From NCBI GenBank assembly GCA_018897155.1, contig JAHILE010000050.1, positions 1 to 35,374 of the forward strand: DNA of 35,374 nucleotides, in the 5' to 3' direction. Position numbers and translations under genes: made by a program. Positions 21,616-34,392 of the stretch are shown in pieces (within the stretch, counting starts at the first letter, position 1; each line of letters starts with the position of its first letter). The notes beneath the pieces are model-generated. The model was given only the letters and a program-made list of their open reading frames with translations, had not been told where the DNA came from and did no database searches. This DNA comes from Nanoarchaeota archaeon (GTDB lineage: Archaea > EX4484-52 > LFW-46).

Positions 21616-22243
21616 ATTCCGGTTGATCCTGCCGGAGATCACCGCTATTAGAGTTCCACTAACCCATGCGAGTTCCTGGGTAAAACCAGAGCGAACGGCT
21701 GAGTAACACGTAGTTAACATCCCTTTAGGTGGCGAATAACCTTGGGAAACTGAGATGAATACGCCATAGTCAATTATGCCTGGAACGGTTTATTGACGAA
21801 AGCTTCGGCGCCTAAAGATTGGACTGCGGAGGATTAGGTCGATGTTAGGGTAATGACCTGACATGCCAATAATCCTTAGGGGCCATGAAAGTGGTAGCCT
21901 CCAGATGGATTCTGAGACACGAATCCAGGCCCTATGGGGCGCAGCAGGGGGGAAAACTCCGCAATGCACGAAAGTGTGACGGGGGAACTCTAAGTGCCAG
22001 CACACTGTGTTGGCTTTTCATTAGTCCAAATCGCTAGTGGAATAAGTGGGGGGTAAGACCGTTGCCAGCCGCCGCGGTAATAACGGCTCCACAAGTGGTG
22101 ATCACGTATATTGGGTCTAAAGCATTCGTAGCCGGTTTGTTAAGTCTTCTGTGAAATCTGATAGAAAACTATCAGGCGTGCAGGAGATACTGGCAAGCTT
22201 GGGACCGGGAGGAGCCTGGAGTACTTTTAGGGTAGGGGTAAAA

Positions 22244-22292
22244 TTTCGCAAAGCAAGCTTTGCTGTATTGCAAATTGCTTCGCAATTTACAA
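22244..22292 (+). other. 16S intron 1, 49 nt, in the 690 loop
   Basis: The conserved GGGGTAAAAT-CCTGTAATCC is interrupted. Candidate BHB: core GTAA (22238-22241)/TTAC (22287-22290), bulges AAT (22242-22244) and AAT (22291-22293). The inner stem GCAAAGCAA/TTGCTTCGC has one mismatch and extra unpaired bases next to the core, so the motif is relaxed. Cutting AA|T on both sides restores GTAAAATCCTG. Confidence 0.75.
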
Positions 22293-22389
22293 TCCTGTAA
22301 TCCTAAAGGGACTACCTGTGGCGAAGGCGCCAGGCTAGAACGGATCCGACGGTGAGGAATGAAAGCGAGGGGAGCAAAGGGGATTAGAT

Positions 22390-22432
22390 TTCGCAACTAG
22401 CGTTGCTCATTTATTCGCTAGCGCGACTAAAT
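22390..22432 (+). other. 16S intron 2, 43 nt, in the 790 loop
   Basis: GGATTAGAT-ACCCCCGTAG is interrupted. BHB is complete: core TTAG (22384-22387)/CTAA (22427-22430), bulges ATT (22388-22390) and ATA (22431-22433), inner stem TCGC/GCGA continued by CTAGCG/CGCTAG. Cleavage after the second base of each bulge gives exactly GGATTAGATACCCCC. Confidence 0.88.
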
Positions 22433-22546
22433 ACCCCCGTAGTCCTCGCTGTAAACGATGCCCGCTTGGTATTGGAAGTTGCTAGACTTCTTCCAGTGCC
22501 GTAGGGAAGCCATTGAGCGGGCCACCTGGGAAGTACAGTCGCAAGG

Positions 22547-22577
<31 letters not shown>

Positions 22578-22715
22578 ACAAGGGGTGCGGTCTGCGGTTC
22601 AATTGGACTCAACGCCGGGAACCTCACCAGGGGTGACAGCAGTATGATGGTCAGTCTGAAGGGCTTACCTGACGCGCTGAGAGGTATTGCATGGCCGTCG
22701 TCAGCTCGTGCCGCG

Positions 22716-22810
22716 AGAGCTTTTACTAAGCCTTTTTTTGAGTTTCTAAGAAACTCAAAAAGCTTGGAAATTCGCAAGAATTTCCATGATCTTAAGAAAG
22801 GCTCCGGTAA
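22716..22810 (+). other. 16S intron 3, 95 nt, with hairpin-GCTT-hairpin unit
   Basis: BHB: core GCCG (22710-22713)/CGGT (22805-22808), bulges CGA (22714-22716) and AAA (22809-22811), inner stem GAGCTTTT/AAAGGCTC (8 pairs, one G-U). Splicing gives GTGCCGCGAGGTGTCC, equal in length to the archaeal consensus GTACCGTGAGGCGTCC. The outer helix is poor. Inside is a unit at 22735-22789: TTTTTGAGTTTC hairpin, GCTT, GGAAATTC-GCAA-GAATTTCC hairpin, ATGA. Confidence 0.87.
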
Positions 22811-22823
22811 AGGTGTCCTGTTA

Positions 22824-22974
22824 ACAGGTCGTGGTGCAGCAAAAATGACATCACCATGGAAGCTTCAACACCCAAAATAGTGTATATCAAGAAAAATAAA
22901 AAATAAGCAAGAGAGTAAACGCGTATACCTAATAAGGGTTTGGATTAATTATCGAAGCTTTTAACTTGACAGAT
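22824..22974 (+). other. 16S intron 4, 151 nt
   Basis: BHB: core CTGT (22818-22821)/ACAG (22969-22972), bulges TAA (22822-22824) and ATA (22973-22975), inner CAGG/CTTG. Splicing gives CCTGTTAAGTCAGG, exactly the archaeal consensus hairpin. The exon between introns 3 and 4 (22811-22823) is only 13 nt. The intron is AT-rich and has no ORF large enough for an endonuclease; AAGCTT occurs twice. Confidence 0.87.
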
Positions 22975-23418
22975 AGTCAGGTAACGAGCGAGACCCACGC
23001 CGTATGTTGCCAACTGTTTCTTCGGAAGCGGCGCACTCATGCGGGACTGCCCGTGCTAAATGGGAGGAAGGAGTGGTCAACGGTAGGTCAGTATGGTCCG
23101 AATCCCCTGGGCTACACGCGGGCGCCAATGGCAAGGACAATAGGATGCAACTCCGAAAGGAGGAGCTAATCCCTGAACCCTTGTCTCAGTACAGATTGAG
23201 GGTTGCAACTCACCCTCATGACGCCGGAATCCCTAGTAGGCGAATGTTAGCATCTTTCGTCGAATACGTCCCCGCTCCTTGCACACACCGCCCATCAAAC
23301 CATTTGAATCGAGTTTGGATGATGCCCTGCCCTGTGGTAGGTTAGAATCCGAATTTGGTAAGAAGGGTTAAGTTGTAACAAGGTAGCCCTACCGGAAGGT
23401 GGGGCTGGATCACCTCCA

Positions 23419-23627: not shown

Positions 23628-23734
23628 GGGCTCTTAGATCAGCTGGTAGATCGCTGCCCTTGCACAGCCCAGCGCAAATTATCGATGCGGCTCGCGAAAG
23701 GCAGAGGCCGCGCGTTCGAATCGCGCAGAGTCCA
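23628..23734 (+). tRNA. tRNA-Ala (UGC) with intron
   Basis: Acceptor GGGCTCT/AGAGTCC contains the G3-U70 pair, the alanine identity element; discriminator A at 23734. D stem GATC/GATC, anticodon stem CTGCC/GGCAG, anticodon TGC at 23661-23663, T stem GCGCG/CGCGC with TTCGAAT loop. The anticodon loop is interrupted by 34 nt (23665-23698, or shifted by one). Core pairing TTGC/GCGA is present but the bulges are irregular. Mature length is about 73. CCA is not encoded. Location between 16S and 23S is common in archaea. Confidence 0.93.
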
Positions 23735-24336: not shown

Positions 24337-26851
24337 TTTGTATGTATGCACCAAGCCACGTAGTGGATGACTTGGCTCAAGAACCGATGAAGGGCGCAAC
24401 AAGTTGCGATAAGCCGTGTGTAGGCGCAAGTAGCCTTTGATGCACGGATTCCTGAATCAGATTATCTGGCCGAAAGGCACTCGGAAACGAGAGGGAACGC
24501 TGGAAATTGAATCATCTTAGTACCGGCAGGAAAAGAAATCAATTGAGATGCTGTTAGTAAGGGCGACCGAAAGCAGCACAGGCCAAGCCGAATCTTCTGC
24601 AGAAATGCAGTCGAGATGTAGCCTAGGCGACATTACCTTCGTACAATAGCTGAAGTGGGCTGGAAAGCCTCTGCCAAAGAGAGTGAAAGCCTCGTAAGCG
24701 AAATTGTGAAAGGTATAGCCTAGAAAGAGTAGTGTAAGTTGAGATTCTTGCATGAAGACGGGGGTCAGATGCCTCCAAGCCTAAACATAACTTGAGTCCG
24801 ATAGAGAACTTAGTACGGCGACGGAAAGTTGAAAAGCAGCCGTAACAGGCGCTGAAAAGAGTCTGAAACTATGTGGTAATAGTCTGTCATGGCATGAAAG
24901 TTCGCAAGAACAGTGTCATGGCGTGCGTTTCGAAAAAAGAGGTAGGGAGTGTATTTAAGTGGCAAGGTTAACTCAAAGAGGGAGCCTAAGGGAAACCAAA
25001 TGTCCGCAACCCGCAAGGGCGAGGGGCGTCGTGTGAAAGCGCGAGAAGTCACTTGAGTATGACCTGAATCTGGACGATCTATTCCAGGGCAGAATGAAGC
25101 ACTTCGAAAGGAGTGTGGAGGTTCGAATCCGGTTGTGGAAACCCTTCGGGTGACCTTGGAATAGGGGTGAAAAGCCAATCGAGTCCAGAAATAGCAGGTT
25201 CCTCTCGAAATGGGCCATAGCCCAGCCTGGAGCGAGGAAGATGCTTGTGTAGAGCTACTGATTAGGGGTTTAGGTTCCGAAAGGGATCGACTCCTTGTCA
25301 AACTCCGAAGCGAGTATCACTGTAGACCTCCGGAGTGAGTGTATTTGGGTAAGCTAAATATGCTAGAGGGAAACAACCCTGACGAAAGTTAAGGCCCTAA
25401 AATATATGCTAAGTGTGACTAAGGTTGTTCTGGTTCTCAGACAGTAGGGATGTAGGCTTAGAAGCAGCCACCATCTAAGCAACGCGTAACAGCGGACCTA
25501 CCGAGAATCAGGGCGCCGTAAATGGACGGGGCTCAAGCATATTGCCGACACTTTCGCATACTCTTCGTTAGAGAGTACATGGGTAGAGAGGCGTAGTGCG
25601 TGGGTAGAAGTAGGGCTGTAAGGTCCTATGGACCGCGCAATAATGAGAATCCTACCAGTAGTAATAGTAAAAAGTAGAGCGAACATCTCTACCGCCGTAA
25701 GGGCCAGGGTTTCTTGGCAATGTTCGTCAGCCAAGAGTTAGCCGATCCTAACGCAAACCCTAACTGGAGTTTGCGGAAAGGGAAGCAGGTAAATATTCCT
25801 GCGCTATAGATATACATGTGGCAACACTAGATTGATTTCTGACACTTTGAGATAAGTTGACATGAACCATCGTTCACGTTAAGGTATGAAGTCCGGGAAG
25901 GAGCGTAATGCTGAGAACCGGATGAAGTGCTGAAGGTCTGCTGTATGGTGGATTCGACCGAATCTTGGAGTCCATGAAAAGGGAATCAACCGGATTATCT
26001 ATAATCGTACCGAGAACCATCACTGGTGTCCCTCGGTTAATAACCAACGGTGCTTCGGGACAAATCCAACTTAAGGAACTCGGCAAATTAGCCCCGTACG
26101 TTCGCAAGAAGGGGTGTCCATTGCCATGTCCTTGAGACATGATCAGTGGATCTCAGTAATAAGGGGGTTCCGACTGTTTAACAAAAACATAACTGGTTGC
26201 TAAGCCGAAAGGCCTTGTATAACCGGTGACTCTTGCCCACTACTGGTATCTGAAACTCCGGTTCAACGGAGCTAAAGACCAGCCAAGGGCGGTCGTAACT
26301 ATGACGATCTTAAGGTAGCGTAATCCCTTGTCGATTAATTGTCGACCCGCATGAAAAGAGGCACGAGATCCCCACTGTCTTAAGTTGGAACCCGGTGAAC
26401 CTGACGTTTTGGTGCATAGTCCAAAGACTTCCAACGGGAAGCGAAGACCCCGTGGAGCTTCACTGCAGTCTGTGATTGATGCACGTTTCTGGATGTATAG
26501 CGTAAGTGGGAGGCGCCGAAGTTTGTCCTGCGGGACAGATGGAGCCGACGATGTAACACCACTCATTTGGAGATTTGCGTCTTACCCGAAAGGGGACATT
26601 TATAGATAGGCAGTTTGGCTGGGGCGGCACACTCCTAACAACTTATCAGGAGTGACCTATGGTGTCCTCAGGCGGAACGGAAACCCGCCGTAGAGTTCAA
26701 AAGCAAAAGGACGCCTGATAGGATTCTGAACAACGAGGAATCCTGCCACGAAAGTGTGGTTTAGCGAACCCTTGTGTCCCTCCATCTGAGGGCCAAGGAT
26801 GACAGAAAAGCTACCCCGGGGATAACTGAGTCGTCTCCTGCGAGAGTTCAT

Positions 26852-27218
26852 TGGCAAATGTGGAAGAAATTCTACATAGCTGATCTCTTGTATTTACAAA
26901 CCTGAAAAGGTTTGGAAAGCTTGAAATTGCATCGCAATTTCAAGATATGACTCTGGTCTTCCCTTATTTCTCTGTTTTCGCAAAATGCGTAACGTTGAAG
27001 TTTGAGGACAAATAAACAGATAAATACATACAACAGATATAGATGCAATTTCATGCCGAAAGGCTTTTGAAATGCCTAATAATCCGGCAAGGATTTTGAG
27101 GAACTAAAGGAGTCCTCAAATCATGCCGCTTTCGCGGCAAGCTTTTGGGCGTAACCCAAAAAGCCTAGAGCAAGCAAAGCTTGCGAAAGGATTTTTAGGA
27201 TTAAGCATCTTCAGATAG
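26852..27218 (+). other. About 367-nt insertion in 23S near the peptidyl transferase centre
   Basis: The conserved sequence CGAGAGTTCAT-ATCGACCAGG (between helices 89 and 90, about E. coli 2475-2480) is split. The insert contains no sizeable ORF; it is a chain of hairpins: CAAACCT-GAAA-AGGTTTG then GCTT then GAAATTGC/GCAATTTC (26897-26941), and TGCCGC/GCGGCA then GCTT then TTGGG/CCCAA (27124-27160), plus GCAAGC/GCTTGC. I could not derive a BHB at the borders, so splicing is unproven. Confidence 0.75.
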
Positions 27219-27490
27219 ATCGACCAGGAGGCTTGCTACTTCGCTGTCGGCTCTTCCTAACCTGGCTGTGCATAAGCAGCCAAGGGTGCGGGTGTTCACC
27301 GATTAAAAGGGATCGTGAGCTGGGTTCAATACGTCGCGAGACAGTATGGTTGCTATCTGTTGGAAGTGTTTGCATCTGAGGGCAAGGTCCGGAGAGTACG
27401 AAAGGAACTCCAGGCCGTAGCCAATAGTGAATCAGTGATCCGACAGGGTCTCTGAATAGCCACGCTATTCTGGATAAGAGCTGAAAGCAT

Positions 27491-27569
27491 ATTTGCGTTT
27501 TCGCAAATATCACTGAGCGCAAGCTTAAGTTGATATTTGCGTAGGGTACATGCCCTGCGCGAAGCTGAT
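27491..27569 (+). other. 79-nt insertion in 23S domain VI
   Basis: The consensus CTGAAAGCAT-CTAAGCTCGAAGCC is interrupted after GCAT (27487-27490). A relaxed BHB is possible: core AGC (27486-27488)/GCT (27564-27566), bulges ATA and GAT, inner TTTGCG/CGCGAA. It competes with a perfect hairpin ATATTTGCG/CGCAAATAT. A GCAAGCTT linker and a second hairpin GCGTAGGG/CCCTGCGC follow. Confidence 0.7.
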
Positions 27570-27709
27570 CTAAGCTCGAAGCCACGCCCAAAAAGAGATG
27601 CAATTGGCTCCCGTAGAAGACGGGTTCGATAGACTGGAGGTGTAAGTGGAGCAATCCATTCAGCCAACCAGCACTAACCGCCATAAAAATGCATACATAC
27701 AAACTTAGA

Positions 27710-34235: not shown

Positions 34236-34392
34236 GGGTCCGTAGCTCAGTTAGGATAGAGCGAATGGCTTCGACGTGCGCGCAATAGTTATTGACCTTT
34301 TGCGCGAATAAAGAAACCATTAGGTCGAGGGTTCAAATCGGTTATTTTTCTTACAAAGAAGAAAAGAAATCGTGAAAATCCCTCCGGACTCG
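34236..34392 (+). tRNA. tRNA-Arg (UCG) with two introns
   Basis: Acceptor GGGTCCG/CGGACTC, discriminator G (34392), D stem GCTC/GAGC, anticodon stem AATGG/CCATT, anticodon TCG (34271-34273), T stem GAGGG/CCCTC. Intron 1 (34275-34315, 41 nt) is at 37/38: core CTT/AAG plus a C-A mismatch, bulges GAC and AAA. Intron 2 (34338-34378, 41 nt) is in the T-loop at 59/60: core TTCA/TGAA, bulges AAT and AAT, inner CGGTT/AATCG, outer T stem; a perfect BHB. The spliced product is 75 nt with T-loop TTCAAAT. A T-run follows. Confidence 0.94.

Follow-up and report, generated by a model that had tools for sequence, protein, structure and literature searches.

Whether a tRNA gene interrupted twice, once within its T-loop, can be functional, and how the second interruption came to be there, are the questions raised by the tRNA-Arg(UCG) locus at positions 34236-34392 (+) of the 35,374-nt stretch of DNA analysed here (hereafter the window). 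On the evidence set out below we consider it very likely that this is a functional, and probably the only, tRNA-Arg(UCG) gene of its genome, that its precursor is spliced twice by the protein pathway, and that the second intron is a gain from a family of T-loop introns made after the split from LFW-46, a member of the same genus (hereafter the congener).

The two 41-nt introns that a sequence-only reading had placed in this gene, one of them in the T-loop, could be read off directly. Exon 1 (nt 1-37; 34236-34274) begins with the acceptor strand GGGTCCG, carries the anticodon TCG at 34271-34273 and is followed by intron 1 at the canonical 37/38 position (34275-34315), for which the congener holds an orthologous intron at the same position (L030). 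Nucleotides 1-39 of the gene are 97% identical between the two genomes. Exon 2 (nt 38-59; 34316-34337) contributes the 5' strand of the T stem, GAGGG (34327-34331), and the T-loop TTCAAA (34332-34337), after which intron 2 interrupts the T-loop at 59/60 (34338-34378). Exon 3 (nt 60-73; 34379-34392) then supplies T60, the T stem strand CCCTC, the acceptor strand CGGACTC and the discriminator G73. Removal of both introns leaves a 75-nt tRNA with complete stems, which ARAGORN calls as tRNA-Arg(tcg). That both introns have the same length, as had been remarked, is correct but not meaningful; it is a coincidence, since intron 1 of the congener is 30 nt long. A split or permuted tRNA was ruled out, the exons being collinear within 157 nt.

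Every base pair of the perfect hBHBh motif that had been proposed for intron 2 was found. The T stem (GAGGG/CCCTC) is the outer helix, TTCA (34332-34335) pairs with TGAA at the end of the intron (34373-34376) at 4/4 positions as the central helix, and CGGTT (34339-34343) pairs with AATCG (34368-34372) as the inner helix, with bulges of 3 nt each (AA|T and AA|T). The central and inner helices were matched or bettered in only 10 of 20,000 dinucleotide shuffles of the intron. An AAAT repeat at the border renders the exact cut ambiguous from the letters alone, and it is placed at AA|T on both sides because the geometry of the motif fixes its position. The bulge-helix-bulge (BHB) motif of intron 1, judged by eye, has a weaker central helix (CTTC/AAAG, 3/4 pairs). 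In the proposed mechanism the gene would be transcribed and EndA would cut the precursor at each of the two motifs, the second of which would have the T stem for its outer helix and, for its central helix, the universal T-loop TTCA paired with the intron-end TGAA, and RtcB would join the exons.

Unspliced, the gene was missed by ARAGORN on the window with or without introns allowed, and its match to the Rfam tRNA model was partial (14.6 bits over 34236-34335); no Rfam family matched the locus at cut-off. Invisibility to standard finders would suit a pseudogene or dying gene, in which the insertion had killed the tRNA and CGA and CGG were read by another. Such a reading was judged highly improbable, given that the spliced form is identical to that of the orthologous congener gene at 72 of 75 positions, that all stems are paired, that more than 12 other tRNA genes show the same arrangement and that no other UCG tRNA was found. 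A search of the whole genome, which is 96% complete, with the spliced tRNA returned only the three exons of the window locus together with weaker matches to other tRNAs, and no tRNA above the Rfam cut-off in this genome has the anticodon UCG. The intact second copy that the sequence-only reading had itself named as its refutation was thus looked for in this 96% complete genome and not found. As CGA and CGG are both in use (18 and 23 codons, respectively, in 15 window ORFs) and no other UCG tRNA was found, the window tRNA should be needed, and its locus appears to be the sole tRNA gene for these codons in the genome.

Both proteins of the splicing pathway are encoded. One RtcB gene is present (G000:C14, where G000 denotes the window genome), and the window genome and the congener (G001) each have one EndA gene (PF01974), that of the former being a 285-aa ORF on contig C48 (L009:1474-2331). 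The form of the endonuclease, which had been left to be identified, is the alpha type: the protein is made up of a single N domain and a single catalytic domain, its closest solved chain is M. jannaschii 1A79, and it is most like the alpha4 enzyme of that organism. A single alpha-type gene implies that the enzyme is neither epsilon2 nor heteromeric, and neither an (alpha-beta)2 composition nor the three-unit, ~390-aa architecture of epsilon2 was found. The residue aligned with K156, which we take to be the catalytic Lys of M. jannaschii EndA, is Ala in the window protein, and every aligned member of the order (L118-L142) has Ala or Ser there, so that the enzyme should not be presumed active; the Tyr at its aligned position and the segment EHTKYNVHA are retained. 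Relative to the M. jannaschii enzyme the alignment also showed two insertions: FGKWIDEEK, which aligns where the CSL/ASL loop lies and has a Lys that is invariant in the aligned order members, and NPYKxGxKxxKEH. Characterised alpha-type enzymes are said to cut canonical BHB motifs only (PMC4033280). The lysine of the CSL/ASL loop has been linked to the binding of RNA or to catalysis in the ARMAN-2 and crenarchaeal enzymes, and the extra lysine-bearing loop of ARMAN EndA is thought to widen its substrate range (PMC12397907). The earlier suggestion of a permissive endonuclease would fit the two lysine-bearing inserts, and these extra loops may be what allows EndA to accept the 59/60 site. With hBHBh borders, a complete tRNA after their removal, and EndA and RtcB encoded in the genome, the introns have the predicted attributes of archaeal BHB-type pre-tRNA introns.

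A DPANN host had been surmised, and the window genome indeed belongs to the genus of LFW-46 (GTDB p__EX4484-52), a public MAG; the congener G001 was equated with LFW-46 on the strength of 200-nt exact stretches that loci of the two have in common. LFW-46 falls within p__EX4484-52, sister to the Nanohaloarchaeota (PMC8561730). The congener encodes its orthologous tRNA-Arg(UCG) at the same place, and a dph2-type gene (Diphthamide_syn, PF01866; 33177-34163, +) that lies upstream in the window is kept in this neighbourhood, which supports the orthology of the gene without the T-loop intron. There the 37/38 intron is present, the T-loop reads uninterrupted as GGGGGTTCAAATCCCTC, and exactly 41 nt fewer are found at this point.

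Elsewhere in the order, the Arg(TCG) gene was intronless in members of other families (L190, L191, L192, L194 and L200), had only a 37/38 intron in L215 and had a D-loop intron in L213, so that the window T-loop intron was absent from all seven of these members tested; this order-wide scan employed looser filters, and several non-tRNA matches were ignored. Three other members do have Arg(TCG) introns at the same T-loop site (L193, 104 nt; L209, 109 nt; L212, 117 nt), as would be expected were T-loop introns an inheritance from the order's ancestor that the congener and others have since lost. These introns, however, bear no visible similarity to intron 2, the seven members above do not have it, and the window intron is homologous to the intron of a different tRNA, Ser(GCU), as described below. 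Ancient inheritance was accordingly regarded as improbable, albeit the least so of the alternatives considered here, and the simplest reading of dissimilar introns at one site is that gain at 59/60 has been repeated. Intron 2 was probably gained recently, after the split from LFW-46, with parsimony giving the direction of change for this gene. The earlier proposal of ongoing intron gain is thereby borne out, both by occupied and empty orthologous sites and by the comparison across the order.

Intron 2 is no isolated oddity. Along the lines of the tRNA search allowing noncanonical introns that the sequence-only reading had advised, searches of the window genome and scans of targeted stretches turned up 13 tRNA genes with T-loop introns: Arg(TCG), Arg(CCT), Leu(CAA), Leu(GAG), Gln(CTG), Glu(CTC), Ile(GAT), Pro(GGG) (initially named ProTGG, but read as ggg by ARAGORN), Pro(CGG), Ala(CGC), Thr(GGT), Asp(GTC) and Ser(GCT). 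The congener also has 13, comprising ten of the 23 inserts tabulated from the two genomes, one of these ten being in a row first named Trp and read as Pro(TGG), together with Pro(CGG), Ser(GGA) and Arg(TCT). One false positive (L047) arose in the strict scan among the loci it covered, and a relaxed regular-expression scan gave mostly false positives, from which only the named genes were taken. In all 23 tabulated inserts, the end of the intron is paired to nt 54-57 of the T-loop (mostly 4/4, in a few 3/4), the T stem is the outer helix, the bulges are of 3 nt and the inner helix follows. Following removal of the T-loop insert, ARAGORN recognised 21 of the 23 genes, though the anticodon called was off in a few with multiple introns.

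Occupancy differs between the two species at further sites, in that the T-loop of Ile, like that of Arg(TCG), is occupied only in the window genome, those of Pro(TGG) and Ser(GGA) are occupied only in the congener, and that of Thr is occupied in both, at one site but by dissimilar introns. Errors of assembly or binning that fused repeats to tRNA genes might be suspected where both genomes are multi-contig drafts and LFW-46 is metagenome-assembled. Yet the same class of intron is present in two assemblies, and the exon-intron borders are exact and structurally constrained, which makes an artefact the remotest of the explanations weighed. Because TTCR is near-universal, the T-loop is a natural target, and an intron that ends in YGAA plus a bulge fits almost any tRNA. 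Intron 2 would accordingly have entered from a family that owes its spread within the genus to the TTCR target common to all tRNAs.

Most of the long T-loop introns were found to be copies of one structured element of about 110 nt, inserted in both orientations. A pyrimidine arm and a purine arm of the element fold into a long hairpin; it further contains a conserved ACAARTCYGGGT and a second purine tract, as well as an apical hairpin and a 3' segment that completes the terminal stem, which becomes the inner BHB helix. RNAalifold returned 22 pairs, 10 of them with compensatory changes. In tRNA-Ser(GCU) the element is reverse-oriented in both species (L018 in the window genome; L099/L110 in the congener) and still forms a valid BHB motif, and in the Ser(CGA) gene of the congener it occupies the anticodon loop. 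Similar introns thus reside in unrelated tRNA genes, as in the Thermoproteales. At convincing scores the element is confined to the genus; matches in other families of the order were weak and were not accepted. Rfam gave nothing at cut-off for the T-loop element except tRNA, and hence no group I intron or described structured RNA. Matches to snoR25, mir-202 and SpR10 fell below the cut-off and were judged to be chance.

Intron 2 itself aligned, with three mismatches and one gap, to the 3'-terminal 37 nt of the T-loop intron, reverse in orientation, of tRNA-Ser(GCU) in the congener (score 56), against a best score of 44.5 in 2000 dinucleotide shuffles compared with the whole library. This result holds without the BHB-constrained TGAAAA, and the next-best matches were reverse complements of forward copies. 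These observations make it most likely that intron 2 was derived from the reverse-oriented element by a shortening deletion, its closest relative being in the tRNA-Ser(GCU) gene of the congener and not in that of the window genome. Intron 2 did not score significantly with a covariance model of the full element, as expected of a fragment. Amongst the other short T-loop introns, those of Leu(CAA), Gln, Glu and Thr were not significant when aligned with the element, and that of Arg(CCT) was marginal.

Since T arms are known att sites, and tRNA introns of Caldiarchaeum have been suggested to stem from the integration of mobile elements (PMC3293823), the T-loop insert could instead be a recombinase scar or att site of a virus or plasmid that is never spliced. 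We find this very hard to credit: inspection of the window ORFs that adjoin the tRNA showed no integrase, the element had no match in 2.9 million viral contigs searched with its exact pattern, and the precise hBHBh register kept in all cases is unexpected for att sites. A spliced intron derived from the repeat family is the reading retained here.

The repeat has a further property. Its pyrimidine arm (alignment columns 12-24) is complementary, in parallel, to the second purine tract (columns 54-66), the offset being fixed at 42 columns, where the mean match is 12.4 of 13 positions, compared with 7.8 or less at the other offsets tried between 36 and 48. Columns 13, 15, 17, 18, 19 and 22 covary, and shuffling of the second tract among the seven distinct sequence pairs gave p of about 0.007. 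The Ala, Asp, Ser and Pro(CGG) copies differ in sequence class between the species but largely keep the mirror relation, which has decayed at one position each in the Ala copy of the window genome and the Pro(CGG) copy of the congener. The first purine arm pairs with the same pyrimidine arm in antiparallel fashion, which makes mirror repeats of the two purine tracts, a possible signature of an H-DNA-like or RNA triplex. A triplex-like segment of this kind may have a structural role in the mobile form.

Seven convincing copies were located outside tRNA genes, three in the window genome (G000:C35:2718, L173; G000:C23:4883, L174; G000:C6:1249, L175) and four in the congener (G001:C13:6461, L179; G001:C63:46, L180; G001:C18:1599, L181; G001:C48:11669, L184). 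All seven start at the base directly after an in-frame TAA, in sense orientation and with T[TGA]C as their first bases, behind open frames of at least 100 aa, and the intron-type 3' segment is missing. Tolerance of insertions in intergenic DNA would not by itself put all seven at the +1 position. Specificity for stop codons would suggest a step at the RNA level, for example ligation by RtcB to an mRNA cut at its stop codon, followed by return to DNA. As a tentative account of all these copies, which we hold to be somewhat less probable than the contrary, a single genus-specific mobile element of ~110 nt may act as an archaeal introner, inserting into many T-loops, where it would be spliced through BHB motifs, and after in-frame TAA codons. 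The account would also take in the insertion in one anticodon loop and the reverse-oriented copies in one tRNA, and would have the mirror-symmetric Y/R/R segment kept by covariation in either orientation, as triplex DNA or RNA in the mobile intermediate. The introners of eukaryotes are short non-coding repeats that make many spliced introns at once; the likeness is one of analogy, in that theirs are spliceosomal introns, whereas those described here would be protein-spliced BHB introns of tRNAs in an archaeon.

Non-canonical tRNA introns and their large-scale transposition were reportedly described for the Thermoproteales by Sugahara in 2008 and Fujishima in 2010. As in that order, the genomes studied here have BHB introns at many positions, 59/60 included, two to three introns per tRNA and similar introns in different tRNAs, from which transposition is likewise inferred. 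The 59/60 position, multiple introns per tRNA and tRNA-intron transposition are established for the Thermoproteales (PMC4090602, PMC4033280). In contrast to them, the host is a DPANN archaeon of EX4484-52 with a single alpha-type EndA gene in place of (alpha-beta)2, and a structured family of ~110 nt is present in both orientations, with copies directly after stop codons. ARMAN/Micrarchaeum (PMC12397907) shares with the present lineage a DPANN host, non-canonical introns and an extra lysine-bearing EndA loop, but its enzyme is of the epsilon2 form, whereas the EndA found here, an alpha-type protein, combines a single N domain with a single catalytic domain and is without the classical catalytic Lys. 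The tRNA-Thr of Caldiarchaeum (PMC3293823) offers another parallel, in that an intron is present or absent between close relatives and a mobile element has been proposed. The agent proposed there is a 1.8-kb recombinase element; in the present case the repeat is the intron, and no element with coding capacity was found.

Searches of open-licence papers retrieved none on tRNA introns in EX4484-52, and no report of a stop-codon-linked counterpart or of a triplex-like tRNA intron; the host lineage, architecture of the element, stop-codon placement and form of EndA look new. The mechanism by which archaeal tRNA introns are gained is an open question, which the paired occupied and empty sites, related introns, orientation data and non-tRNA copies now make testable; the route of transposition proposed above is a candidate. 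Intron-rich tRNA sets with T-loop introns occur in this groundwater DPANN lineage alongside an alpha-type EndA without the classical catalytic lysine, and these introns explain why standard annotation underestimates the tRNA set of the lineage.

Several other insertions were recorded. Introns in the D-arm or D-loop were observed in four tRNA genes of the window genome, namely L017 (Val CAC), L015 (Met), L028 (Ser GGA) and L064 (Pro CGG), the last of which apparently has three introns. The tRNA in the 16S-23S spacer of the window (23628-23734), called Ser(cga) by ARAGORN, is better read as Ala(TGC) with a 37/38 intron. The rRNA introns postulated in the sequence-only reading were corroborated for the small subunit, the window 16S rRNA (21616-23418) having four inserts when compared with the archaeal model of Rfam, their lengths being about 50, 45, 97 and 153 nt (near 22243-22292, 22390-22434, 22715-22811 and 22825-22977, respectively), and the 23S rRNA (24339-27697) is longer than its Rfam model. 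A second repeat family, CCGCATAATCGG...TTAGGGCGACC..., fills the anticodon-loop introns of L008 (Val TAC), L023 (Gly CCC) and L007 (Glu CTC), and is also present just downstream of tRNA genes (Val GAC in L007 and the flank of L028). In four copies of the ~110-nt element (L085, L174, L175 and L184) a further small repeat is nested in the spacer, between ACAAATC and CCGGGT, with AAATC-like sequence on both sides.
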